43,077 nucleotides of DNA, taken from an uncultured Clostridia bacterium. Its GTDB lineage: Bacteria > Bacillota > Dehalobacteriia > UBA4068. Every line of letters begins with the position of its first letter. Within the stretch, counting starts at the first letter, position 1. Below are positions 21,036 to 36,429 of the stretch, piece after piece. Made by a program: the position numbers and the translations under genes. The notes under the pieces were generated by a model. That model worked only from the letters and a program-made list of their open reading frames with translations. It was not told the DNA's origin and ran no database searches. The stretch is from assembly GCA_944393575.1 (NCBI GenBank), contig CALYAP010000026.1, positions 1-43,077 of the forward strand, in the 5' to 3' direction.

Positions 21036-22718
21036 ATGGCTGAAGAATATTTAAAGCTAAAAAAATCTAATTGCAAAAACTGCTATAAGTGCATTAGACA
21101 TTGTCCGGTCAAGTCGATCCGCTTTTCTGATGACCAGGCGCATATCATTCCGGAAGAATGCATTCTTTGCGGTCACTGCTTTGTTGCCTGCCCACAAAAT
21201 GCTAAAGAGATCCGCAATGATGTAGCGAAAGCAAAGGAACTAATCAAAAGCGGTCAGCCAGTCTATGCCAGTATCGCCCCTTCATTTGTTGCTAACTATG
21301 ATAATGTTACTATTAAATCAATGGAAGAGGCGCTCAAGAAGCTAGGTTTTAGCGGCGTAGAAGAAACAGCGATTGGCGCTACCATAGTCAAAAAACAATA
21401 TGAAAATATGGTGAAAGATGCACAACAAGATGTTATTATTTCCACCTGTTGCCATACTGTTAATCTATTGGTTCAAAAGCATTTCCCTAAAGCCATTCCC
21501 TACTTAGCTAAAGTAGTATCGCCAATGCAAGCGCATTGTCTGGATATTAGAATGCGGCATCCAGAAGCTAAAACTGTTTTCATTGGCCCTTGTATCGCCA
21601 AAAAGGAAGAGGCGGAAAGATATGCAGATATTGTTGACTGCGCTTTGACCTTTGAGGAACTATCTGAGTGGCTCTATGATGAAAAAATTCAGTTAAACTA
21701 CATTGAAGACGATAGCACGGAAGGACGCGCAAGATTCTTCCCCACTTCCGGCGGTATCCTGAAAACTATGGATCTTGACGAACTCAAGGACTATACCTTC
21801 CTAACTGTAGATGGCATAGAAAACTGCATCAATGCTATCGAGGATATTCTTAACGGCAATATTCATAAATGCTTCATTGAAATGTCGGCCTGTGCTGGCA
21901 GCTGCATTGGCGGACCAGCCATGGATAAAAATCACCGCATGCCAATCCGTGATTATGTTGCCATCAGCAAATATGCGGAAAAAGATGATTTCAATGTCGC
22001 AAGCATCTCAGAAAAGATTATTAAAAAGGAATTCGAAACACTGGAAGAACGCAGAATTATGGTATCAGATTCTGCTATTGAAGAAGTGTTGCGCGAAATG
22101 GGCAAAACCAAACCAGAAGATGAACTAAACTGTGGCAGCTGCGGATATAATACCTGTAGAGAAAAAGCAATGGCAGTATTACAAGGCAAAGCAACCATTA
22201 CCATGTGCTTGCCGTACTTAAAAGAAAAGGCAGAGTCCTTCTCTGATAATATCATTCAGAACACACCTAATGCCGTCATTGTTCTCAACGAAAATTTGGA
22301 AGTACAGCAAATCAATCAAGCTGCCTGCCGTTTGATCAACAACGCCTCCCAGCGTGATGTTTTAGGCAACCCAGTAGTACGTATTTTGGATCCTACACCA
22401 TTCATCAATGCTTATCAGCAAGGACAAAATTTCTATGATAAACGAGTATATCTTGCTGAATATCAAAAATATGTAGAACAAAGCGTTATCTATGATAAAG
22501 AATATCATATCATCATCTGCATCATGCGTGATATAACCGATGAGACCAAACAGCGCGAACATAAACAAGAGCTGAGCCGCACTACGGTAGAAATAACCGA
22601 CAAAGTTATTGAAAAACAAATGCGTGCAGTTCAGGAAATAGCTTCTCTGTTAGGAGAATCAACTGCTGAGACCAAAGTGGCATTGACTAAATTAAAGGAG
22701 TCGTTGAGCGATGAATGA
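21036..22718 (+). CDS. HydS-like sensory [FeFe] hydrogenase with PAS domain
   Basis: A 560-residue protein. The N-terminus carries two [4Fe-4S] ferredoxin motifs (CKNCYKCIRHCP, CILCGHCFVACP). An H-cluster domain follows with altered motifs: STCCHTVN (Cys138/139) where catalytic enzymes have TSCCPAW, GPCIAKKEE for MPCxxKxxE, and SACAGSCIGG for MACPGGCxxGGG. An extra iron-sulfur motif NCGSCGYNTCREKA lies near residue 367. A PAS domain spans about 405-505, followed by a helical tail. This matches the putatively sensory (group C, HydS) hydrogenases thought to detect H2 and pass a signal on. Its stop overlaps the SpoIIE-type phosphatase start by 8 bp, a strong hint that they work together. AGCGGAGGT precedes the ATG. 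Confidence 0.9.
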   Translation: MAEEYLKLKKSNCKNCYKCIRHCPVKSIRFSDDQAHIIPEECILCGHCFVACPQNAKEIRNDVAKAKELIKSGQPVYASIAPSFVANYDNVTIKSMEEALKKLGFSGVEETAIGATIVKKQYENMVKDAQQDVIISTCCHTVNLLVQKHFPKAIPYLAKVVSPMQAHCLDIRMRHPEAKTVFIGPCIAKKEEAERYADIVDCALTFEELSEWLYDEKIQLNYIEDDSTEGRARFFPTSGGILKTMDLDELKDYTFLTVDGIENCINAIEDILNGNIHKCFIEMSACAGSCIGGPAMDKNHRMPIRDYVAISKYAEKDDFNVASISEKIIKKEFETLEERRIMVSDSAIEEVLREMGKTKPEDELNCGSCGYNTCREKAMAVLQGKATITMCLPYLKEKAESFSDNIIQNTPNAVIVLNENLEVQQINQAACRLINNASQRDVLGNPVVRILDPTPFINAYQQGQNFYDKRVYLAEYQKYVEQSVIYDKEYHIIICIMRDITDETKQREHKQELSRTTVEITDKVIEKQMRAVQEIASLLGESTAETKVALTKLKESLSDE

Positions 22719-23886
22719 TCTATGTACAGATATCGGCCACATCAGCTTGATAAAACATGGTGAGCAGCTTTGCGGTGATCATGTTGAAGTGATCAACCCT
22801 AGTGATAACTCAACCGTTGTAGTCCTTGCAGATGGTCTGGGCAGCGGAGTTAAAGCTAATATTCTAGCAACACTAACTTCCAAAATCATCTCTACTATGA
22901 TGGCTAATGATCTACCGGTAGAGGACTGTGTTGCAACGATAGCGGCTACCTTGCCCATATGTAAGGTGCGTAATGTCGCCTACTCTACCTTTACCATTAT
23001 CCGAATCATTGATAATGAGGAAGCAGAGATCATCCAGTATGATAATCCACATGTGATCATGCTGCGCGATGGGAAAAACTATGATTACCCCACGATCTCT
23101 GAAACCATCGATAATAAGGTGATCTATAAATCAAAGATTCCGCTCAAGGAAGACGATACTTTCGTTGCTATCAGTGATGGAGCGATCCATGCTGGTGTTG
23201 GCATGAGCCTCAATTTTGGTTGGCAGCGAGAAGATATCATCGAGTTTCTAGAAACCATGTATTGCAGTGACTTTACTGCCAAAACTATCAGCTCAATGCT
23301 GATCAACGAATGTAATTCCCTCTATGGCGGAGAACCAGGTGATGATACTACTGTTTGCACAGTAAAAGTGCGCAAGCGCAAACCGGTTAATATGATGTTT
23401 GGTCCGCCATCTGACCCCAAAGATGATTCGCTGATGATGTCGTTATTCTTCTCCAAAGAAGGCAAGCATATCATTTGCGGAGGCACTACATCATCCTTGG
23501 CAGCTAAATTTCTTGGCAAAGAACTTGATGTTAGCATGCCGGTCTATGTGGATCCAGAAATACCGCCTATCGCCAAGATTGAGGGAGTCGATCTGGTAAC
23601 AGAGGGTGTAGTTACTATCAGTAAAGTTTTGGAATATGCCAAGGACTATATCAAAGATAACGAGCTTTATACTCAATGGAGCTATAAAAAAGACGCCGCT
23701 TCTTTGATTGCCAGAATGCTATTTGAAGAGGCTACTGATATTAATTTTTATGTAGGGCGTGCTGTCAACCCCGCTCATCAAAACCCCAAACTACCGATTG
23801 GCTTTAATATTAAAATGCGGTTAGTTGAAGAATTATCCGAATGCCTTAAGCAAATGGGTAAAAGAATCAAAGTCAGTTATTTCTAA
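22711..23886 (+). CDS. SpoIIE-family protein phosphatase linked to HydS
   Basis: A 391-residue protein with an N-terminal PP2C/SpoIIE phosphatase domain (about 1-205). Metal-ligand motifs are VLADGLGSGVKAN, VAISDGAIHAGVG and EPGDDTTVC. The remaining 185 residues form a second domain with KHIICGGTTSSLAAKFLG, VYVDPEIPPIAKIEGVDLV and GRAVNPAHQNPKLP, which I cannot assign a function. Translation is coupled to the HydS-like gene by an 8-bp overlap. Such phosphatases usually act on phosphorylated anti-sigma-antagonist or other Ser/Thr-phosphoproteins, so H2 sensing by HydS may end in dephosphorylation of a partner (inference). No kinase or anti-sigma gene is adjacent. Confidence 0.88.
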   Translation: MNDLCTDIGHISLIKHGEQLCGDHVEVINPSDNSTVVVLADGLGSGVKANILATLTSKIISTMMANDLPVEDCVATIAATLPICKVRNVAYSTFTIIRIIDNEEAEIIQYDNPHVIMLRDGKNYDYPTISETIDNKVIYKSKIPLKEDDTFVAISDGAIHAGVGMSLNFGWQREDIIEFLETMYCSDFTAKTISSMLINECNSLYGGEPGDDTTVCTVKVRKRKPVNMMFGPPSDPKDDSLMMSLFFSKEGKHIICGGTTSSLAAKFLGKELDVSMPVYVDPEIPPIAKIEGVDLVTEGVVTISKVLEYAKDYIKDNELYTQWSYKKDAASLIARMLFEEATDINFYVGRAVNPAHQNPKLPIGFNIKMRLVEELSECLKQMGKRIKVSYF

Positions 23887-23898
23887 GGGAGGGTCAAC

Positions 23899-24375
23899 AT
23901 GAAACAAGCTTTCGATTTCACTGCTGTTGACAAAATTATTGACGAAATTGGAGCTCAACCCAGCTCAATTATTGCTATTCTCCAAGGTATCCAAGAAAAA
24001 TACCGTTACCTGCCTCAGGAAGTTTTTCCGTATATGGCTGAGCGGTTAGGGGTAAGCGAAGCTAGAATATATAGCGTAGCGACTTTTTATGAAAACTTTT
24101 CTCTGGAACCTAAAGGAAAATTTGTAATTAAAGTCTGTGATGGCACTGCCTGCCATGTAAGAAAAAGCATCCCTATTCTGGAAAGACTAAGATCTGATCT
24201 CGGTCTATCAGAGGACAAGGCTACGACTGATGATCTAGGCTTTACTGTAGAAACAGTCTCCTGCTTAGGAGCCTGTGGATTAGCACCGGTACTTACGGTC
24301 AACGATAAAGTATATCCGGCTATGACTCCAGATAAAGCATCTGAATTACTCGAGCAGCTCAAGGAGGAACTATAA
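23899..24375 (+). CDS. hydC: Electron-bifurcating hydrogenase subunit HydC (NuoE-like)
   Basis: A 158-residue thioredoxin-fold [2Fe-2S] protein. The N-terminal helical bundle (IAILQGIQEKYRYLPQEV, YSVATFYENFSL) and cluster ligands CDGTACHVR and CLGACGLAP match NuoE. With HydB and HydA it forms the cytoplasmic complex that makes H2 using NADH and reduced ferredoxin together. GGGAGG precedes the ATG. Its stop overlaps the hydB start by one base (TAATG). Confidence 0.94.
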   Translation: MKQAFDFTAVDKIIDEIGAQPSSIIAILQGIQEKYRYLPQEVFPYMAERLGVSEARIYSVATFYENFSLEPKGKFVIKVCDGTACHVRKSIPILERLRSDLGLSEDKATTDDLGFTVETVSCLGACGLAPVLTVNDKVYPAMTPDKASELLEQLKEEL

Positions 24376-26249
24376 TGCTACATAATAGAGAAGAACTCCA
24401 AAAAGCCCGCCAAGTTTATGCAGAGGCTTTAAATGCTGAGGAGAAAAAGATTCTTGTTTGTGCTGGTACAGGCTGTGTTTCCAGCGGTTCTTTAGAAATT
24501 TTTGATAAACTAACCCAATTAATGCAGGAAAAAGGTATCTCCTGCTCTGTTGAATTGGAACAAGAACCTCATCATGATGTCGTCGGTATGAAAAAAAGCG
24601 GCTGTCATGGATTTTGCGAAATGGGTCCATTAATCCGTATTGAACCTCAGGGCTGGCTCTACGTCAAAGTGAAGCCAGAAGACTGCGAAGAAATAGTTGA
24701 GAAAACTATTAGCAATGGTGAACATATTGAGCGGTTGGCCTATCAAAAAGGAAAGACCATATGCCAAAAACAAGATGATATCCCCTTTTATAAAAAACAA
24801 ACCCGTTTGGTTTTGAACCATTGCGGACATATCGATGCCAACTCAATAAAGGAATATCTGGCAGTAGGTGGCTATTCTGCCTTTGAAAAGGCTCTTTTTG
24901 ATATGACTGCTGATGAAATCATAACTGAGATCAGTGAGTCTAATCTTCGCGGCCGTGGCGGCGGTGGTTTTCCTGCCGGCCGTAAATGGGCTCAAGTGAA
25001 ACGTCAAACCGAACCGCAAAAATATGTCGTTTGCAATGGTGACGAGGGCGATCCGGGCGCCTTTATGGATCGTAGCATCATGGAAGGCGATCCGCATAGC
25101 TTGCTGGAAGGGATGATGATAGCAGCATTATCATGCGGAGCAAATGAGGGCTATATCTATGTCCGCGCTGAGTATCCTATGGCGGTCAACCGCCTTAGAA
25201 CAGCTATTGCTCAAGCCAAGGAAGCAGGATTATTAGGCAATAATATCCTTGGTACAGAGTTTAGCTTTGATATTCACATCAGCCGTGGCGCCGGTGCTTT
25301 TGTCTGCGGTGAAGGCTCGGCCCTAACAGCCTCTATTGAAGGCAAACGCGGTATGCCAAGAGTCAAACCACCCCGCACTGTTGAGCATGGTCTCTTTGAT
25401 AAACCAACCGTACTCAACAATGTTGAAACTTATGCCAATGTACCGTTGATCATCAATAAAGGTGCTGCCTGGTATAAAACTATTGGTCCGGAAAACAGTC
25501 CTGGTACTAAAGCCTTTGCCCTCACTGGTAATATTGTCAATACTGGACTTATTGAAGTGCCAATGGGTACGACACTAAGGGAAATCATTTTTGAAATTGG
25601 CGGCGGTATGCGTGACGGCGGAGAGTTCAAAGCGGTCCAAATCGGAGGACCGTCAGGCGGCTGTCTTACTAAAGATGATCTTGATCTGCCCTTGGACTTC
25701 GATTCCTTAACCAAGGCTGGGGCCATGATCGGTTCTGGCGGACTGGTTGTAATGGATGACAAAACCTGCATGGTTGAAGTTGCCCGTTTCTTCATGAATT
25801 TTACCCAGAATGAATCTTGCGGAAAATGTGTCCCCTGCCGCGAAGGCACTAAGAGGATGCTGGCAATCTTAGAAAGAATCGTCAATGGCGAAGGTGAAGA
25901 TGGCGATATCGAGATGCTGTTAGAATTAGCCGATACTATTTCTGCTACCGCTCTCTGCGGCCTTGGCAAAACAGCAGCCTTCCCGGTAGTAAGCACTATC
26001 AAAAGCTTCCGGGACGAATACGAAGCACACATCTATCAAAAACGGTGCCCTGCCGGCGCCTGTCAAAAACTCAAACAAATCTATATTGTTCCCGAACTAT
26101 GCAAGGGATGCTCTAAATGTTCCCGCATTTGTCCTGTTACCGCTATCAGTGGTAAGGTCAAAGAACCATTCGTTATCGACCAAAGCAAATGTATTAAATG
26201 CGGCGCCTGCATCGAATCTTGCCCGTTCCATGCCATCAAGGAGGCCTAA
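24375..26249 (+). CDS. hydB: Electron-bifurcating hydrogenase subunit HydB (NuoF-like)
   Basis: A 624-residue flavoprotein. A thioredoxin-like [2Fe-2S] domain opens it (CAGTGCVSSGS, KSGCHGFCEMGP). The NuoF core follows with NADH/FMN motifs RGRGGGGFPAGRKW, GDEGDPGAFMDRS and GAFVCGEGSALTASIEG. A [4Fe-4S] site ESCGKCVPCREGTKRM and two C-terminal ferredoxin motifs (CKGCSKCSRICP, CIKCGACIESCP) complete it. This domain order is that of HydB of the trimeric bifurcating hydrogenases. It takes electrons from NADH at FMN. The 1-bp overlap with hydC and 5-bp gap to hydA indicate a fixed stoichiometric operon. Confidence 0.96.
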   Translation: MLHNREELQKARQVYAEALNAEEKKILVCAGTGCVSSGSLEIFDKLTQLMQEKGISCSVELEQEPHHDVVGMKKSGCHGFCEMGPLIRIEPQGWLYVKVKPEDCEEIVEKTISNGEHIERLAYQKGKTICQKQDDIPFYKKQTRLVLNHCGHIDANSIKEYLAVGGYSAFEKALFDMTADEIITEISESNLRGRGGGGFPAGRKWAQVKRQTEPQKYVVCNGDEGDPGAFMDRSIMEGDPHSLLEGMMIAALSCGANEGYIYVRAEYPMAVNRLRTAIAQAKEAGLLGNNILGTEFSFDIHISRGAGAFVCGEGSALTASIEGKRGMPRVKPPRTVEHGLFDKPTVLNNVETYANVPLIINKGAAWYKTIGPENSPGTKAFALTGNIVNTGLIEVPMGTTLREIIFEIGGGMRDGGEFKAVQIGGPSGGCLTKDDLDLPLDFDSLTKAGAMIGSGGLVVMDDKTCMVEVARFFMNFTQNESCGKCVPCREGTKRMLAILERIVNGEGEDGDIEMLLELADTISATALCGLGKTAAFPVVSTIKSFRDEYEAHIYQKRCPAGACQKLKQIYIVPELCKGCSKCSRICPVTAISGKVKEPFVIDQSKCIKCGACIESCPFHAIKEA

Positions 26250-26254
26250 CAACT

Positions 26255-27955
26255 ATGGAAAAGAAAAAAGAATTTATGACTATTGATGGGATGCCAGTCG
26301 AGATCAATGGTGAAAAAAATCTGCTTGAATTGATACGCAAAGCAGGCATCAAAATGCCTACCTTCTGCTACCATTCTGAGCTTTCTATTTATGGCGCCTG
26401 CAGGATGTGTATGGTCGAAAATAAATGGGGTGGATTGGACGCAGCCTGCTCTACTATTCCTAAAGCAGGCATGGAAATCAGAACCAATACCGAAAGGCTG
26501 CGTAAATATCGCAAAAATATTCTCGAATTACTTTTGGCTAACCATTGCCGTGATTGTACTACCTGCAATAATAATGGAAAATGCAAACTGCAAGACCTGG
26601 CTATGCGTTTCAATATCCAGGGAGTACGTTTTCCCAATACCGCAGCCAAACCGCTGCTGGACGAATCCTCTCCCTGCATCACTAAGGACGCACATAAATG
26701 CATTCTCTGCGGTGACTGCGTGAGAATGTGCAATGAGATCCAAAATGTGGGTGCCATCGATTTTGCCCATCGTGGATCTAAGATGACCATTAGCACGGCA
26801 TTTGGCCGGCCAATAGCAGATTCTCCTTGCGTTGGCTGCGGACAATGCGCTGCGGTATGCCCGACAGGAGCTATCATCGTAAAAAATGATACTCAAAGGG
26901 TATGGTTAGCGCTCGACGATAAAAGTACTAAAGTTACCGCCCAGATTGCCCCTGCTGTCCGTGTAGCACTGGGCAAAGAAATGGGTCTTGCTGCAGGAGA
27001 AAACGCCATGGGGCAGATCGTAGCGGCTTTAAGAAAAATGGGCTTTGACGAAGTGTATGACACCTCAACTGGTGCAGACCTGACTGTTCTAGAGGAAGCT
27101 AATGAACTGATCAAGCGTCTGGAAGACAATAATAATGATATGCCACTTTTCACCTCCTGCTGCCCTGCTTGGGTGCAATTCTGTGAAAAGAAATATCCAG
27201 AGCTGCTGCCGAATGTCTCTACTTGTCGGTCACCAATGCATATGTTTGCATCCCTACTGCATGAAGAAAACCGTAATTCATCACGCAAACATTTTCATGT
27301 TGGCATCATGCCCTGCACTGCTAAAAAATTCGAGGCTACCCGCGAAGAACTCAAATTAGATGGCCAGAGCCCTGTTGATGCAGTTATCACTACTCAAGAA
27401 TTAATCCAGATGATTAAAGAGTCTGGTATTGTCTTCGACGAAATTGAGCCCGAGGCAGTGGATATGCCGTTTGGAACTGCTACTGGTGCTGGCGTTATCT
27501 TCGGTGTAACTGGTGGCGTCACCGAAGCAGTATTGCGCCGAGTTTCCGCTGATAAATCCAGGGCATCTCTGGCGACTATTGCCTATCAGGGTATTCGCGG
27601 TATGGAGGGTGTGAAAGAGGCTACTATAGAATACGGAGATCGAGAGATTAGAGTAGCTGTTGTCAGCGGGCTTAAAAATGCTTCTGATTTGATCGAAAGA
27701 ATTAAAGCTGGCGAACACTATGACTTGGTTGAAGTGATGGCATGTCCGGGCGGATGTGTCAGCGGTGCAGGCCAACCGTTTGCTTCAGCAAGAGCTAAGA
27801 GCAAACGCGGCGAAGGTCTATATGCTGCCGACAAACTGTGTAATATCAAACGTTCTGAAGAAAACCCACTGATGATGCCGCTCTATAATGGGCTTTTGAA
27901 AAACAAAGTGCATAAACTTTTGCATGTCAACTACATCAAAGGGGAGGAAAAATAA
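26255..27955 (+). CDS. hydA: [FeFe] hydrogenase catalytic subunit HydA
   Basis: A 566-residue catalytic subunit. ATG 26255 is chosen because AAGGAGG lies 10 nt before it; an in-frame ATG inside hydB would add 19 residues without a ribosome site. Domains in order: plant-type [2Fe-2S] (FCYHSELSIYGACRMCMV), His-Cys3 [4Fe-4S] (NHCRDCTTCNNNGKC), two ferredoxin clusters (CILCGDCVRMC, CVGCGQCAAVCP), then the H-cluster domain with TSCCPAW (Cys302/303), MPCTAKKFE and MACPGGCVSGAGQP. The small-subunit-like tail ends HKLLHVNY. All catalytic motifs are intact apart from A for G in the usual GGGQP. It needs HydEFG maturases, which are not in this window. Confidence 0.97.
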   Translation: MEKKKEFMTIDGMPVEINGEKNLLELIRKAGIKMPTFCYHSELSIYGACRMCMVENKWGGLDAACSTIPKAGMEIRTNTERLRKYRKNILELLLANHCRDCTTCNNNGKCKLQDLAMRFNIQGVRFPNTAAKPLLDESSPCITKDAHKCILCGDCVRMCNEIQNVGAIDFAHRGSKMTISTAFGRPIADSPCVGCGQCAAVCPTGAIIVKNDTQRVWLALDDKSTKVTAQIAPAVRVALGKEMGLAAGENAMGQIVAALRKMGFDEVYDTSTGADLTVLEEANELIKRLEDNNNDMPLFTSCCPAWVQFCEKKYPELLPNVSTCRSPMHMFASLLHEENRNSSRKHFHVGIMPCTAKKFEATREELKLDGQSPVDAVITTQELIQMIKESGIVFDEIEPEAVDMPFGTATGAGVIFGVTGGVTEAVLRRVSADKSRASLATIAYQGIRGMEGVKEATIEYGDREIRVAVVSGLKNASDLIERIKAGEHYDLVEVMACPGGCVSGAGQPFASARAKSKRGEGLYAADKLCNIKRSEENPLMMPLYNGLLKNKVHKLLHVNYIKGEEK

Positions 27956-29179: not shown

Positions 29180-29255
29180 TAAATGCTAAATTTATCAATA
29201 AATGGTTAGGTGAAATAAAAACAAAGTCTTAACAAAAGAAACAAGGAAGTCACTG

Positions 29256-29837
29256 ATGAAAAATATTTTGCTCTTGCTGCCAAATGGCTTTGAATTATTG
29301 GAGGCGGCTGCCTTTACCGATATTTTTGGCTGGAATATGGTCGCCGGGAATCGCTCAGCAAAACTATATACGGCCGGTCAAAATAAGGATGTGCCAACGA
29401 GCTTTGGCCATACCATACATACCCATTATACGTTTGCTGAAGTGCACAGCGCTTATTTTGAGGCGCTAGCTTTACCAGGCGGATTTGCCCGCTATGATTA
29501 TTTCTCCACAGCCAATGATGACGAGTTCCTGCGTATTATTAAGGAATTTGCTGCGGAAAATAAGCCAATAGCTGCAGTATGTACCGCATCTATTCTTTTA
29601 GGCAAAACAGGGATACTTAATAATCGGCATGCAACTACCTATCAGGGTGAAAATGGCCGTTGGCTAGACCAATTAGCCACTTTAGGCGCACAAGTAACTA
29701 CCGAACAAATCTGCATCGATGGGCCAATAATAACCGGCAGCGGCCCTTCTTCAGCTATACCGGTAGCACTTAAATTACTGGAAATGACCATTGGCCATAA
29801 GACAGCAGAATCCATCTCTGATATGATGGGCTTTTAA
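29256..29837 (+). CDS. DJ-1/PfpI family protein
   Basis: A 193-residue cytoplasmic protein of the DJ-1/ThiJ/PfpI superfamily. The nucleophile elbow is AVCTASILLGKTG with Cys109. The nearby acidic residue of this family is in NGFELLEAA near the N-terminus, and the ALPGGF strand-turn is present. Members act as protein or glyoxal deglycases, chaperones or unknown hydrolases; sequence alone does not decide. AAGGAAG precedes the ATG. Confidence 0.9.
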   Translation: MKNILLLLPNGFELLEAAAFTDIFGWNMVAGNRSAKLYTAGQNKDVPTSFGHTIHTHYTFAEVHSAYFEALALPGGFARYDYFSTANDDEFLRIIKEFAAENKPIAAVCTASILLGKTGILNNRHATTYQGENGRWLDQLATLGAQVTTEQICIDGPIITGSGPSSAIPVALKLLEMTIGHKTAESISDMMGF

Positions 29838-29939: not shown

Positions 29940-30974
29940 CTATTTAACTTCTATCCCCTGCCCTGCAACAATCTCCCCAATAATCCTGGCTGCAGGTATT
30001 TCTTTTTGCAAATCAGCCAATAAGGCATCGGCTTCTTTACCAGGAAGAGCGAATAATAATCCTCCCGAGGTCTGCGGATCGCAAAGGATATCAATAATAG
30101 GCAACGGAACAGCATCATTGAAGCGAGCCCGCTCCCCGACATAATTACGATTAGTATAAGCGCCGGCTGGTACCAAGCCCATCTCCGCCATCTCATAAGC
30201 ACCATCAATTAAAGGCAACGAGGAACTATCAATTATCATGCCCTTATCGTTATCGCCAACCATCTCTAAAGCATGTCCCAGCAGACCAAAACCAGTCACA
30301 TCTGTGCAGGCATGCAGCGGATAAGGCGCCGCGATCTCTGCAGCTCGGCGGTTCAAAGTGGCCATCACTTCTATTGTAGGCTTGAGGCTATCTGCGTCAA
30401 TCAGTTCACCCTTAGCGGCAGTTACCATGATACCGCTACCCAATGGCTTAGTGAGAATGATCTTATCGCCGATTTGTGCACCATTATTAGTAAGAATTTT
30501 ATCCGGAGCTATAAAACCTGAAACACATAATCCATATTTGGGTTCAGGATCAGAGATACTATGTCCGCCGGCAATTATCGCCCCCGCCTCAGCAACCTTA
30601 GAATATCCACCCTCGAGAATGCGGCCTACTTCCTCAGGAGAGAGACAATTAGGAAAACAGAGCAAATTCATGGCAATAACCGGCCTAGCCCCCATGGCGT
30701 AGATGTCAGAAAGGGCATTAGCAGCAGCAATTTGCCCAAACAAATAAGGATCATCAACCATAGGAGGGAAAAAATCTACTGTTTGTACTAAAGCTAAATC
30801 ATCGTTAATACGATAGACACAAGCATCATCACTGCTATCGAAACCAACAATCAAGTTTTTATCAGTAAACTTAGGCAAGCTAGCAAGAATTTCCGATAGG
30901 ACTCCCGGTCCTATTTTCGCTGCTCAACCTGCTGATGTAGTCATTTGAGTTAGCCGTCTTTTTTCTTCGCTCAT
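29940..30974 (-). CDS. selD: Selenide, water dikinase SelD, itself a selenoprotein (Sec17)
   Basis: A 344-residue enzyme making selenophosphate from selenide and ATP. Conceptual translation must read through a TGA at 30926-30924: the frame begins MSEEKRRLTQMTTSAG, then U17, then AAKIGPGVLSEIL. This matches the SelD active-site loop, where the position is Cys or Sec, followed by the catalytic Lys20. A SECIS-like hairpin follows at the expected distance. Downstream motifs GFDSSDDACVYRINDD and TVDFFPPMVDDPYLFG (ATP/Mg binding) are normal. AAAGGAG lies before ATG 30974. If the TGA is read as a stop, the gene would wrongly be annotated from TTG 30878. Selenocysteine insertion implies selA, selB and tRNA-Sec elsewhere in the genome. 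Confidence 0.95.
30896..30914 (-). promoter_or_regulatory. SECIS-like hairpin in selD
   Basis: On the mRNA, ATAGGAC and GTCCTAT form a perfect 7-bp stem with loop CGGGA. The loop starts 17 nt after the UGA, within the range of bacterial SECIS elements, and exposes guanines as SelB recognition requires. Confidence 0.75.
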
Positions 30975-31026
30975 TGTCTAAACTCCTTTAATATTTAAAA
31001 AACAGCCAGCTTTCTTAAGTATTATA

Positions 31027-31060: not shown

Positions 31061-31089
31061 GTGACAAACAATATCTTTTTTGGTATAAT
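31061..31089 (+). promoter_or_regulatory. Promoter of the selenium-linked lysR gene
   Basis: GTGACA (31061-31066), 17-bp spacer, TATAAT (31084-31089), 29 bp before the start codon. It is back-to-back with the selD promoter. Confidence 0.75.
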
Positions 31090-31117
31090 AAAAATAATAA
31101 GATTTTGGAGGCATGAT

Positions 31118-32038
31118 ATGGATTTCCGACAATTAGAGGTATTCATTGCAGTAGTTGAACTTTCCAGCTTCTCTAAGGCTGGCGAACAACTATATTTAAG
31201 CCAACCGACAGTCAGTGCTCATATCAGTGCCTTAGAAAAAGAATTGGCGGTGCCTCTGCTTATCCGTAATACACGTGAGGTATATACTTCAGAAGCAGGA
31301 CAACAACTCTATGACTATGCCTGTCGATTAATCCGGCTTAGAGATGAAGCCATCGAAGCGGTAAGCAATAAGGCAGAACAAGAAAAGGGTATTATCAGTA
31401 TCGCAGCTTCCACCATCCCTACTAAATATATTCTACCTTCATTGATATCTGCCTTCTGCCGCAATCATCCTTCCATTAGTTTTAATATCATTCCCTGTGA
31501 TAGTAGCACCGTATATACCGCTATAGAAAAAGGTGAAGTAAAAATAGGTTTTGGCGGAACAGCGGTTAATATGGATTTATACCGTCATTATCCTATTGCA
31601 ACCGATAAATTAGTTATCATAACTCCTAACAATGAACATTTTCAAAGCATAGCACAACTAAGCAACCCTTTAAATGAACTACTAAAAGAACCATTTATTT
31701 GTAGGGCTAGCGGATCTGGCACCAGACATGAATTTGAACGTTATCTTGCTGAGCATCATTTTAATAGCAAATTGAACGTGGTAGCGGAAATGCATGATAC
31801 AGAAGGGATAAAGAACTCAGTAGTTCAAGGCCTAGGAATTGCTGCTATTTCAGAACGTGCTGCTGAAGATATGGTACGGTTTAAACTATTAAAAGAATTT
31901 ACTCTTCCTAATGGCGGTGAGCGTTTTCTTTATCTCATTCGCCAGAAAAAAGACCGTCTAAATGAACGTGAACGTCTTTTCTGTAATTTTGTTTTAGAAC
32001 ATGCCCCATTGAGCAAAACTTCTAAATATGCCATTTAA
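31118..32038 (+). CDS. Selenium-associated LysR-type regulator
   Basis: A 306-residue LysR regulator starting MDFRQLEVFIAVVELSSFSK. The helix-turn-helix (AGEQLYLSQPTVSAHISALE) is followed by a CysB-like effector domain with PCDSSTVYTAIEKGEVKIGF and ASGSGTRHEFERYL. This resembles the LysR subgroup that travels with selenium genes; here it is divergent from selD, with promoters 5 bp apart. ATG 31118 follows TTTGGAGG by 6 nt; the longer frame from 31061 would overlap its own promoter. It probably regulates itself and selD (inference). Confidence 0.9.
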   Translation: MDFRQLEVFIAVVELSSFSKAGEQLYLSQPTVSAHISALEKELAVPLLIRNTREVYTSEAGQQLYDYACRLIRLRDEAIEAVSNKAEQEKGIISIAASTIPTKYILPSLISAFCRNHPSISFNIIPCDSSTVYTAIEKGEVKIGFGGTAVNMDLYRHYPIATDKLVIITPNNEHFQSIAQLSNPLNELLKEPFICRASGSGTRHEFERYLAEHHFNSKLNVVAEMHDTEGIKNSVVQGLGIAAISERAAEDMVRFKLLKEFTLPNGGERFLYLIRQKKDRLNERERLFCNFVLEHAPLSKTSKYAI

Positions 32039-32084: not shown

Positions 32085-33329
32085 TCAGCAGCTGGAACTA
32101 TGTAAATATTTTTCCTGTTCTGCTGTTAAGGTATCTATTTGTACTCGTAAAGATGCTAATTTTAAACGGGCTATCTCATCATCTATTGTCTTTGGGACTG
32201 GGTAAAGCTTATTAGCAAGCTGCGACTGATATTCTACCAAATAAGCCAAGCTTTTAGCTTGAATAGCAAAACTCATATCCATAATTTCAGCTGGATGACC
32301 CATTCCGGCAGCCAGGTTCACCAAGCGGCCCTCAGCTAAAAGATTGATCATTCTCCCGTCCGTCATCCGATAGCCAGTAATACTTGGCTTCCGCTCTACT
32401 ATTTCACAGGCCAAGTTCTTGAGGTCATGCTTATTCACCTCACAGTCAAAATGGCCAGCATTGGATAGAATAGCACCATCCTTCATTCGCTGCATATGCT
32501 CTGCAGTAATCACATCTTTACAACCAGTTACCGTGATAAAAAGGTCTCCTTCCTCTGCGGCTTGCAGCATCGGCATAACTTCAAACCCGTCCATAACAGC
32601 TTCGATAGCCTTAACAGGATCCACTTCAGTAATAATGACTCTGGCACCCATACCCTTAGCGCGCATAGCCACACCTTTGCCACACCAGCCATAACCTGCT
32701 ACTACCACAGTACGAGAGGCAATACTTAAATTCGTCACCGCCATAATAGCGGTAAGCGCTGATTGTCCAGTACCATAGCGGTTATCAAACAAATGCTTGC
32801 AATCAGCATCATTAACGGCAATCATCGGAAAATTGAGTGTACCTTCAGCCTCCCTGGCCTTTAGACGAATAATCCCGGTAGTCGTTTCCTCACAACCGCC
32901 GATCAGTTGGTCGCAGCAACCGGCACATTCGCCGCTCAAAAGGCTGACAAAATCGCCTCCATCATCCAATATCAGATGAGGATGGCAGCTTAAGGTATCC
33001 TTTAAGTGGCGCTGATAGCAAGACTCATCGGCTCCATGAATAGCATTAACTTCAAATCCACGCTCAACTAAAGCAGCCGCAATATCATCCTGGGTAGAAA
33101 GCGGATTGGAGCCGGTAACAAAAACCTCTGCCCCACCAGCTGCAAGAGTAATCGCCAAATAAGCTGTCTTAGCCTCTAAATGAATGCTCATCGCAATCCG
33201 GCGGCCGGCAAAAGGACGACTATGAATAAAATCCTCTTTGATTTTATTTAGCAAGGGCATATAAGATGCGACCCACTGAATTTTATCTTCGCCATTAGAC
33301 GCTAATTTTTGGTCTCTAATATCGCTCAT
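32085..33329 (-). CDS. ahcY: S-adenosylhomocysteine hydrolase (or S-inosylhomocysteine hydrolase)
   Basis: A 414-residue NAD-dependent enzyme that clears S-adenosylhomocysteine to homocysteine and adenosine. It has IQWVASYMPLL, SIHLEAKTAYLA, GGCEETTTGIIR and the NAD site VVVAGYGWCGKGVAMRAKGMG. The C-terminus is of the shorter type found in anaerobes and archaea. Unusual features are ECAGCCDQLIGGC just before the EETTTG motif, HFDCEV where HFDVEI is usual, and a terminal SSSC. Some short homologues prefer S-inosylhomocysteine, so the substrate is uncertain. It sits inside the selenium island but has its own terminators on both sides, so co-regulation is not shown. Confidence 0.93.
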   Translation of the reverse strand: MSDIRDQKLASNGEDKIQWVASYMPLLNKIKEDFIHSRPFAGRRIAMSIHLEAKTAYLAITLAAGGAEVFVTGSNPLSTQDDIAAALVERGFEVNAIHGADESCYQRHLKDTLSCHPHLILDDGGDFVSLLSGECAGCCDQLIGGCEETTTGIIRLKAREAEGTLNFPMIAVNDADCKHLFDNRYGTGQSALTAIMAVTNLSIASRTVVVAGYGWCGKGVAMRAKGMGARVIITEVDPVKAIEAVMDGFEVMPMLQAAEEGDLFITVTGCKDVITAEHMQRMKDGAILSNAGHFDCEVNKHDLKNLACEIVERKPSITGYRMTDGRMINLLAEGRLVNLAAGMGHPAEIMDMSFAIQAKSLAYLVEYQSQLANKLYPVPKTIDDEIARLKLASLRVQIDTLTAEQEKYLHSSSC

Positions 33330-33497: not shown

Positions 33498-33743
33498 TTA
33501 ACGGTTATCAGCGATATTAAGATATTCTCCATCTACTACTTGAACCAGCCTTTCTAGCGGTTTGATAGGAATTGACGCCAGCTGCTCATCTTCACAACTA
33601 AAACTAGCGCATGTGCCGCAGGAAGAACTGAGTTCTCTAGGGACTGGCATCAATTTAGTAGGGATACTCATCCTTCTTTCAAGAATACGCTGAAAAACCA
33701 TAGCATCATAAACAGTATAAAAAGTAGCAATATAATCCTTCAT
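33498..33743 (-). CDS. DUF3343 protein, selenium-linked
   Basis: An 81-residue protein beginning MKDYIATFYTVYDAMVFQRI and containing PTKLMPVPRELSSSCG, the DUF3343 pattern. A cysteine cluster CGTCASFSCED follows. DUF3343 proteins commonly sit beside YedE/YedF and SelD in selenium-using bacteria; the C-terminal part of long YedF-like proteins can resemble it. It may handle selenium or sulfur as persulfide or selenosulfide (inference). It begins 16 bp after the TusA-like gene, in the same operon. The longer frame upstream of 33743 overlaps that gene and is rejected. Confidence 0.85.
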   Translation of the reverse strand: MKDYIATFYTVYDAMVFQRILERRMSIPTKLMPVPRELSSSCGTCASFSCEDEQLASIPIKPLERLVQVVDGEYLNIADNR

Positions 33744-33759
33744 TTTTATCACCAGCTGC

Positions 33760-33966
33760 CTATTTACTAATGTCGATAATCGTATCATTATTTTGTTCGC
33801 TAATGGCAACATTAAATCCTGCTTTTTGTGCATAGCGAGTAACATTAGCTTTAGCAGCCGGAGCATCGACCAAAACGCGGCAACCTTCAGGATGAGCATC
33901 TAGAGCTTGTTTAGTAAGTAATACTGGTTGTGGACAACTAAGTCCTCTAGCATCTACCGTAATCAT
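33760..33966 (-). CDS. TusA-like YedF-type selenium/sulfur carrier protein
   Basis: A 68-residue TusA/SirA-fold protein. The CPxP motif reads LSCPQPVLLTK with Cys11 as the carrier cysteine. AGGAGG lies 6 nt before ATG 33966. Selenium-associated YedF is usually about 200 residues with a second domain; here only the TusA-like domain is present and a separate DUF3343 gene follows, so the function appears split over two genes. It begins 10 bp after the membrane transporter gene, suggesting that imported selenium or sulfur is handed to Cys11 (inference). Confidence 0.9.
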   Translation of the reverse strand: MITVDARGLSCPQPVLLTKQALDAHPEGCRVLVDAPAAKANVTRYAQKAGFNVAISEQNNDTIIDISK

Positions 33967-33976
33967 ATTATTCCTC

Positions 33977-35116
33977 CTATTTAGCAACTTGCATATCAGT
34001 AGGTTCTGGTTTCTCTTCTACTGTTTCTGCAACCACCGGTTCTGGTGCTTTTTTAGTATTGATAACAGCAATAATCACCAAAACTACGATAATAGCTATT
34101 GTCGCTATTTTACCCGCTAAAGTAGGGCCGCCGCTGACCACACCATCTGTAACGGTAGTAGCAGATGAAGCCAGGCCAAAATTGTGTGCAAAGGCGGCGC
34201 CAACAAAATAACCAAAAACAGTGATCACGGAATCCGAATTGCCTTCGCCAGAAAGCACCAGCTGACGCAATGGGCAACCACCCAGCATGACCGAGCCAAG
34301 ACCTACAGCAGCCATGGAGAGGAAGTTCCATACGCCATCAGTATGAGCGATCGGCTGATCCATAAAGCTGACATGGAAGAAACCAAAGCAGACATTAGCA
34401 ATAGCTGCGGCGATCAAAATTCCGACAAAACCGAGCAATAAAGTCCAATCCTTGAAAAGGATCAGATCGCGGATGCCGCCAACCATGCAAAGGCGGCTTC
34501 TCTGTGCCAATACACCGACAATCAAGCCAGCGATCAAAGAGATAATGATTGGTGCATGCATAGAACCAGGGCCAGATTCAGAGAAGAAGATAAAGGCCGG
34601 TGCAGTAATCAAGAGAACTAATAAACCAATCTGAATAACAGGCAAACTAATACCATCAGTTAATGGCATTTTATGAGTGCGTTTAAGACTGTAACCTTTT
34701 TTGAGGAAAAAGACACCGCCAGCAATACCGGCAGCAAAACCAACCAGACCGACAATAGCGTTCAAATCGCCGCCAGCAATACGCAGAACCATACGCAAAG
34801 GACAACCAAGGAAAACAAGTGCAGCTACCATAACCATGAAGCCAAGGACAAAACGGGTTGCCGGAGAGCTGCCGCCTCTGGGCATAAACTCTTTAGCGAT
34901 CAAAGCTGCAATCAGTGATCCTAAAACCAACCCAATGATCTCTGGACGGATATACTGGACAGCAGCAGCTTGATGCACACCTAGAGCACCTGCGGTATCA
35001 CGGATAAAACAGGCTATGCAATAGCCCATATTACCGGGATTTCCAAAAAATACTAATAATACAGAAATAAGTCCGATAGCTAAACCACCTATCAAAATCC
35101 ACTTTTTTCCGTGCAC
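33977..35116 (-). CDS. yedE: YedE-type selenium-metabolism membrane protein
   Basis: A 379-residue membrane protein with about ten hydrophobic segments. It has the duplicated GCPLR motif (LGCPLRMVLR and GGCPLRQLVL) and paired cysteines such as GYCIACFIRD and RSRLCMVGG, the pattern of the YeeE/YedE family. The selenium-linked branch is proposed to import a selenium compound; related YeeE imports thiosulfate. The start is GTG 35116, served by GGAGGTG 8 nt upstream. The C-terminal tail is acidic and Pro/Glu-rich, in the cytoplasm by prediction. It leads a three-gene operon divergent from the desulfurase gene. Confidence 0.93.
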   Translation of the reverse strand: MHGKKWILIGGLAIGLISVLLVFFGNPGNMGYCIACFIRDTAGALGVHQAAAVQYIRPEIIGLVLGSLIAALIAKEFMPRGGSSPATRFVLGFMVMVAALVFLGCPLRMVLRIAGGDLNAIVGLVGFAAGIAGGVFFLKKGYSLKRTHKMPLTDGISLPVIQIGLLVLLITAPAFIFFSESGPGSMHAPIIISLIAGLIVGVLAQRSRLCMVGGIRDLILFKDWTLLLGFVGILIAAAIANVCFGFFHVSFMDQPIAHTDGVWNFLSMAAVGLGSVMLGGCPLRQLVLSGEGNSDSVITVFGYFVGAAFAHNFGLASSATTVTDGVVSGGPTLAGKIATIAIIVVLVIIAVINTKKAPEPVVAETVEEKPEPTDMQVAK

Positions 35117-35271: not shown

Positions 35272-36429
35272 ATGGATAAGAAAACACTTTATTTAGATAA
35301 CGCTGCTACCACCTATCCTAAACCACCCCAGGTAGCAAGGGCTGTAGCAGAATATATTGCAAACATTGGCGTCAATGTCAATCGTGGAGGATATGCCAAG
35401 GCCTACGATGCGGCAGAATCCATTTTGACACTGCGGGAACGTTTATGCTCTTTTTTCCAAGGGCCTGATCCCCGTAATGTTATTTTTACCGCCAATGTCA
35501 CATCATCTCTCAATTTCCTGCTCAAAGGGTGGCTTAAGCCAGGTGACCATATTATCGTCACCTCATTAGAGCATAATGCCGTAATGAGGCCTTTAGTCCA
35601 ACTCCAAGAACAGGGAGTGAGCTTCGATTGCATTCCTCCAGATCAAAACGGTTTGCCAGACATGTCTGCAGTCAAAGGGCTGATCAAAGAAAATACTCGG
35701 GCCATTGCTTCGCTGCATGCATCTAATGTTAGCGGCGGCATAGTCGATATTGCTGCCCTAGGGCAAATTTGTCAGGAAAATAATTTAAAACTAATCGTCG
35801 ATAGTGCTCAGAGCGCCGGTATCCTACCGATTCAGATGAAGGATATGCATATTGACGCTTTGGCCTTTACTGGTCACAAAGGTCTTATGGGGCCGCAAGG
35901 TATTGGCGGTTTTATCATCACTGATGAAATGGCAGCTGAAACTACGCCATTAATTGCCGGGGGGACTGGAAGCTTTTCTCATTTGGAAACTATGCCAAAT
36001 TTATTGCCAGACCGTTTCGAGGCTGGAACAATGAACTTACCCGGCATGGCAGGATTAGCTGCTGCTATGGACTTTTTAGAAGAACAAGGAATCGAAAAAA
36101 TTCATGCTCATGAACAGAAATTAACCCGTGTTTTTATTGATGGGCTTAAGGACCACGAGCAAATCGATATCATTGGTAAAGACTATCCGCAAAGAGTTGC
36201 TGTAATATCACTTAATTTTCTTGGCTGCGATAATGCTAAGATCGCCTGGATGTTAGAAAATGAATACGGCATCATGGTACGTTGCGGACTGCACTGTGCA
36301 CCACGGGCTCATAAAAGTGTAGGGACCTATCCAGAAGGAACCGTGCGTTTCGCCCCAGGTATCTTTACTACAGAAGATGATATGCAATATGCAGTAGAAG
36401 CCATTTTGAAAGTATTGGCAGAACAATAA
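35272..36429 (+). CDS. Cysteine desulfurase / selenocysteine lyase family protein
   Basis: A 385-residue PLP enzyme of aminotransferase class V. It starts [19 protein letters not shown]. The PLP lysine is Lys203 in [12 protein letters not shown]. The catalytic cysteine is Cys342 in [11 protein letters not shown], with Cys338 nearby. This is the SufS/CsdA-like branch often found with selenium genes, where it may release selenium or sulfur from (seleno)cysteine to feed SelD or the YedF carrier (inference). It is divergent from yedE across a 155-bp region with two dyads. The ribosome site is weak. Confidence 0.93.

Follow-up and report, generated by a model that had tools for sequence, protein, structure and literature searches.

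Reports of Sec-containing SelD, or SPS2 (TIGR00476), cover many bacteria, Clostridia and Pasteurellales among them (PMC1794560, PMC4561486, PMC13188914). SelD is the second most widespread selenoprotein family of prokaryotes (PMC13188914), and a 2015 study found the Sec form in 19% of the SelD genes of its reference set (PMC4561486). Comparative genomics has additionally tied LysR_Se, YedE, SirA/TusA-like and DUF3343 proteins and Sec lyase to selenium use (PMC5322559). Here we analysed a stretch of 43,077 nucleotides from an uncultured Clostridia bacterium (the window). Our data imply that its selD is almost certainly a selenoprotein gene, in which codon 17, a UGA, is read as Sec by means of SelB and a hairpin that begins 9 nt downstream.

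The selD gene, encoding selenophosphate synthetase (selenide, water dikinase), lies on the minus strand at 29940..30974 and, with TGA translated as U, gives a protein of 344 residues with Sec at residue 17. Its frame runs from 30974 to 29940 as MSEEKRRLTQMTTSAG-U-AAKIGPG and onwards to a TAG stop. It holds a single TGA at 30924..30926 (minus strand), identified by reading the sequence and by comparison with homologues, which bears out the in-frame UGA that the original prediction had placed at codon 17. The ATG at 30974 is preceded by a Shine-Dalgarno sequence, AAAGGAG, that is read directly from the same strand (30983..30989) and is rated good to strong. The protein matches TIGR00476 with 390.9 bits (E 4e-117, profile positions 1-309 of 311; the curated equivalog cut-off is 125 bits) and the solved SelD chain PDB 3u0o with E 1.2e-76. 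In this alignment U17-A-A-K20 falls on C17 and K20 of 3u0o, so the UGA does occupy the active-site Cys/Sec position as proposed, and the C/UxxK catalytic motif is present; UxxK is the motif listed for Sec-containing SelD (PMC13188914). The mechanical ORF call starts at TTG 30878 and gives 312 residues, exactly the loss of 32 residues that had been foreseen for a standard gene caller. Ordinary gene calling thus drops the catalytic residue together with its surroundings, and the annotation is corrected here.

The comparison with Cys- and Sec-containing SelD proteins revealed a TGA/Cys exchange at one codon. Of 80 homologous selD loci taken from named genomes, 31 have TGA at codon 17 and 49 have a Cys codon (TGT or TGC); no locus carries any other residue there. 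A search of 61 whole genomes, those of the source organism and its relatives, gave 40 strong SelD matches, 37 of which contain exactly one internal TGA. The TGA is present in the two other genomes of the genus, one of which provides the closest selD locus (84% identical); there, as among the relatives generally, the frame between ATG and TGA is conserved. Judging from these genomes, the Sec form of SelD is the rule in the source lineage.

The apical hairpin of a bacterial SECIS element is found at 30896..30914 of the minus strand as ATAGGAC-CGGGA-GTCCTAT, where 30914-30908 pairs with 30902-30896 and the loop spans 30907-30903. The perfect 7-bp stem and the GGG in the loop are as originally described; the distance of 17 nt given for the hairpin corresponds approximately to the loop, which is separated from the UGA by 16 nt, while the stem itself already starts at 9 nt. 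The published bSECIS model (PMC13188914) allows a loop of 3-9 nt, a stem of 4-16 bp, a G at loop position 1 or 2, a spacing of 16-37 nt and a minimum free energy of at most -7.5 kcal/mol. The hairpin agrees with the model on every count: the loop has 5 nt with a G at position 2, the stem has 7 bp, and the energy is -7.9 to -8.6 kcal/mol. The spacing of 16 nt agrees only just, being the lower limit. Over the window Rfam gave no match at the gathering threshold; around the hairpin its matches did not rise above chance level.

When the isolated hairpin was compared with dinucleotide shuffles its fold was unremarkable (z -0.65 to -1.14), and therefore we used a synonymous-codon null, in which the protein is kept and only synonymous codons are altered. 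By this measure Sec-type selD sequences fold better than expected (n=46, mean z -1.66), whereas Cys-type sequences show no excess folding (n=49, mean z +0.15); the source gene itself has z -2.27 (p 0.015). The core stem of four pairs, counted with a one-base shift allowed, is complete in 36 of 46 Sec-type but only 6 of 49 Cys-type genes, and in 32/41 versus 4/35 after dereplication at 85%. Pairing drops when one arm is slid along the other. Additionally, in Sec-type selD the free wobble base of the Gly22 codon varies together with the base it pairs with, the middle one of codon 25: A goes with T, G with C or T, and T with A. This covariation has MI 0.68, reached in 0 of 5000 permutations, whereas in Cys-type selD it is weak (MI 0.20, p 0.05). 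In genes with Thr (ACC) as codon 25, the stem seems to pair in a register displaced by one base. All these p-values overstate the significance because the selD sequences are related; the difference between Sec-type and Cys-type genes carries more weight. On this sequence comparison, the hairpin is under selection at the RNA level in Sec-type but not in Cys-type selD, which makes the two sets a clean example of RNA-level constraint within a coding sequence.

The original prediction implied a complete Sec machinery, and our search of the rest of the genome (78 contigs, estimated completeness 96.89%) found selA, selB and tRNA-Sec. In profile searches selB scored 373 bits (cut-off 242) and selA, which adjoins it on contig C29 (266-4251), 539.5 bits (cut-off 268). 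The tRNA-Sec with anticodon TCA is found at the end of contig C2 (59-151), with 72.3 bits against a gathering score of 47. As a side remark, the selA-selB pair also stands at a contig end, and it could be that the two loci are neighbours split by the assembly. Further selenoproteins were sought by chosen families. A glycine reductase cluster on contig C56 (25240-28621) encodes GrdA with CFVU (CxxU), its one in-frame TGA being at the known Sec site, and GrdB with an in-frame TGA in STUGTSTRCG, likewise a known Sec site. The cluster also contains what we take to be GrdE-like and thioredoxin-reductase-like proteins. A standard caller would cut both grdA and grdB. Only one SelD is encoded in the genome. 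The notion that it is a selenoprotein is therefore supported by the machinery, the TGA/Cys exchange, the conserved SECIS and two further selenoproteins.

A genome search for molybdopterin oxidoreductase (PF00384) gave no match, so no formate dehydrogenase of the PF00384 family is found, and a search for SelU, which serves selenouridine synthesis, gave none above the cut-off. In a published survey all Sec-decoding organisms without FdhA had a Sec-containing SelD (PMC1794560), and the source genome, with a Sec-type SelD and no FdhA detected, agrees with this pattern. The source organism thereby joins the Sec-decoding, glycine-reducing anaerobes without detectable formate dehydrogenase.

One might suspect, given that the window comes from a fragmented draft assembly, that the TGA in selD arose by an error of sequencing or assembly, or that selD is a decayed pseudogene and the TGA a genuine stop. 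However, the same TGA recurs in the genomes of the genus and in most relatives, that is, in many independent assemblies, and this conservation in homologues refutes such an explanation. Additionally, the remaining frame of selD is intact and highly conserved, the TGA is the sole in-frame TGA in 11,132 codons of window genes, and the only SelD of the genome is needed for GrdA and GrdB. The window holds further ORF extensions across an in-frame TGA, for example at 29202-29256 upstream of a DJ-1 gene or past the ahcY stop, but these exist in the mechanical ORF list only, and we did not regard them as selenoprotein candidates. We consider an error or a pseudogene to be extremely improbable, and equally so a genome-wide reassignment of UGA to one of the standard amino acids (Trp, Gly or Cys) without Sec machinery, for which nothing speaks beyond the in-frame TGA itself. 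The window genes contain 88 TGG codons against that one TGA, and 2 of the 33 genes, ahcY among them, end in TGA. Moreover, prfB (RF2), on contig C67 at about 14601, carries AGGGGGTCTCTTTGAC, the classical programmed +1 frameshift site of RF2, in which UGA is the codon sensed by RF2: CTTTGAC has AGGGGG upstream, and the zero frame reads MLEEIRPLLQEGKKRLEALRGSL up to the stop. UGA is thus a stop codon outside selenoprotein sites, and reassignment is refuted because UGA acts as a terminator; the presence of selA, selB and tRNA-Sec also stands against it.

It could further be proposed that the functional SelD begins past the TGA, at TTG 30878 with 312 residues, and that the upstream part is a leader. 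This is the ORF given by the standard caller, and the solved SelD chain 2zau does lack the N-terminal segment (its match begins at query residue 36). However, the missing segment contains UxxK, the catalytic motif; it is the upstream ATG that has the strong Shine-Dalgarno sequence before it; and the residues upstream of the TGA are conserved in relatives. Thus a downstream start is very unlikely.

Returning to the Sec-decoding explanation, we infer from homology that UGA17 is decoded and that SelD is enzymatically active. SelA would make Sec-tRNA(Sec), and SelB, tethered by the hairpin, would bring it to UGA17. Sec17 would then stand where other SelD proteins have their catalytic Cys (U17 and K20 of UxxK), in the flexible N-terminal loop, and there it probably handles selenide while selenophosphate forms. 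The selenophosphate would in turn feed SelA and thereby supply Sec to GrdA, GrdB and SelD itself. Because the single SelD of the genome is of the Sec type, the production of SelD would depend on its own product.

The neighbourhood of selD is rich in genes associated with selenium. A selenium metabolism-associated LysR-type regulator, LysR_Se, is encoded divergently at 31118..32038 of the plus strand (NF040786, 305.2 bits, cut-off 250); of the mechanical ORF 31061-32038, the profile matches from residue 20 onwards. LysR_Se adjoins selD in the two other genomes of the genus too, and a LysR gene is found beside selD in several more distant Clostridia as well. Regulation of selD by this neighbour is plausible. 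A more elaborate scenario, in which the Sec-type SelD and the divergent LysR_Se form a selenium-sensing feedback switch, is compatible with the sequence, and we regard it as rather unlikely. On the minus strand, ahcY (adenosylhomocysteinase, 32085-33329) lies within the selenium gene group, between selD and the genes around yedE; in the relatives compared, no ahcY was seen close to selD. The putative selenium transporter gene yedE is at 33977..35116 (minus strand; TIGR04112, 503 bits, cut-off 200). A protein similar to cysteine desulfurase and Sec lyase is encoded at 35272..36429 of the plus strand (TIGR01977, 442.3 bits, cut-off 377); against the SclA model it reaches 388.8 bits, below the cut-off of 525.

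Two separate small genes lie nearly adjacent on the minus strand (33498-33966). One, at 33760..33966, encodes a protein like TusA and the YedF N-terminus, MITVDARGLSCPQPVLL, which matches only the N-terminal third of TIGR03527 (E 4.6e-16) and remains below its cut-off. The other, at 33498..33743, encodes a DUF3343 putative Se/S carrier protein (PF11823, E 7e-15) beginning MKDYIATFYTVYD, and its start is likely the ATG at 33743. The mechanical ORF 33498-33899 (ATG 33899) was rejected: its start falls within the TusA-like gene, too far upstream. The DUF3343 gene was also checked for a hidden Sec and none was found. Elsewhere in the window, at 21036-27955 of the plus strand, there is an [FeFe] hydrogenase gene group, typical of an electron-bifurcating hydrogenase, in the order PAS/FeS hydrogenase-like sensor, SpoIIE-type phosphatase, and NuoE-, NuoF- and hydrogenase-like subunits.

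Compared with the selenium gene neighbourhood described before (PMC5322559), the locus has all five gene types within 6 kb of selD. It differs in that the TusA-like and DUF3343 proteins are encoded by separate small genes, with no full-length two-domain YedF in the window, and in that ahcY is inserted between selD and the other genes. With the Cys-containing SelD 3u0o the source protein shares family, length, Lys20 and core motifs, but 3u0o has Cys17 where the source SelD has Sec17, and the Cys-type selD relatives, unlike the source gene, have no conserved hairpin. With Sec-containing SelD/SPS2 it shares the same single Sec position, UxxK, a bSECIS directly downstream, and a genome with selA, selB and tRNA-Sec; it is unlike them only in sequence divergence, and we see no functional difference. 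The finding of a Sec-type selD is thus correct but ordinary, since the form is common and long described. The source selD is a new sequence of a well-known gene form of Clostridia and relatives, and as such it is useful for annotation.
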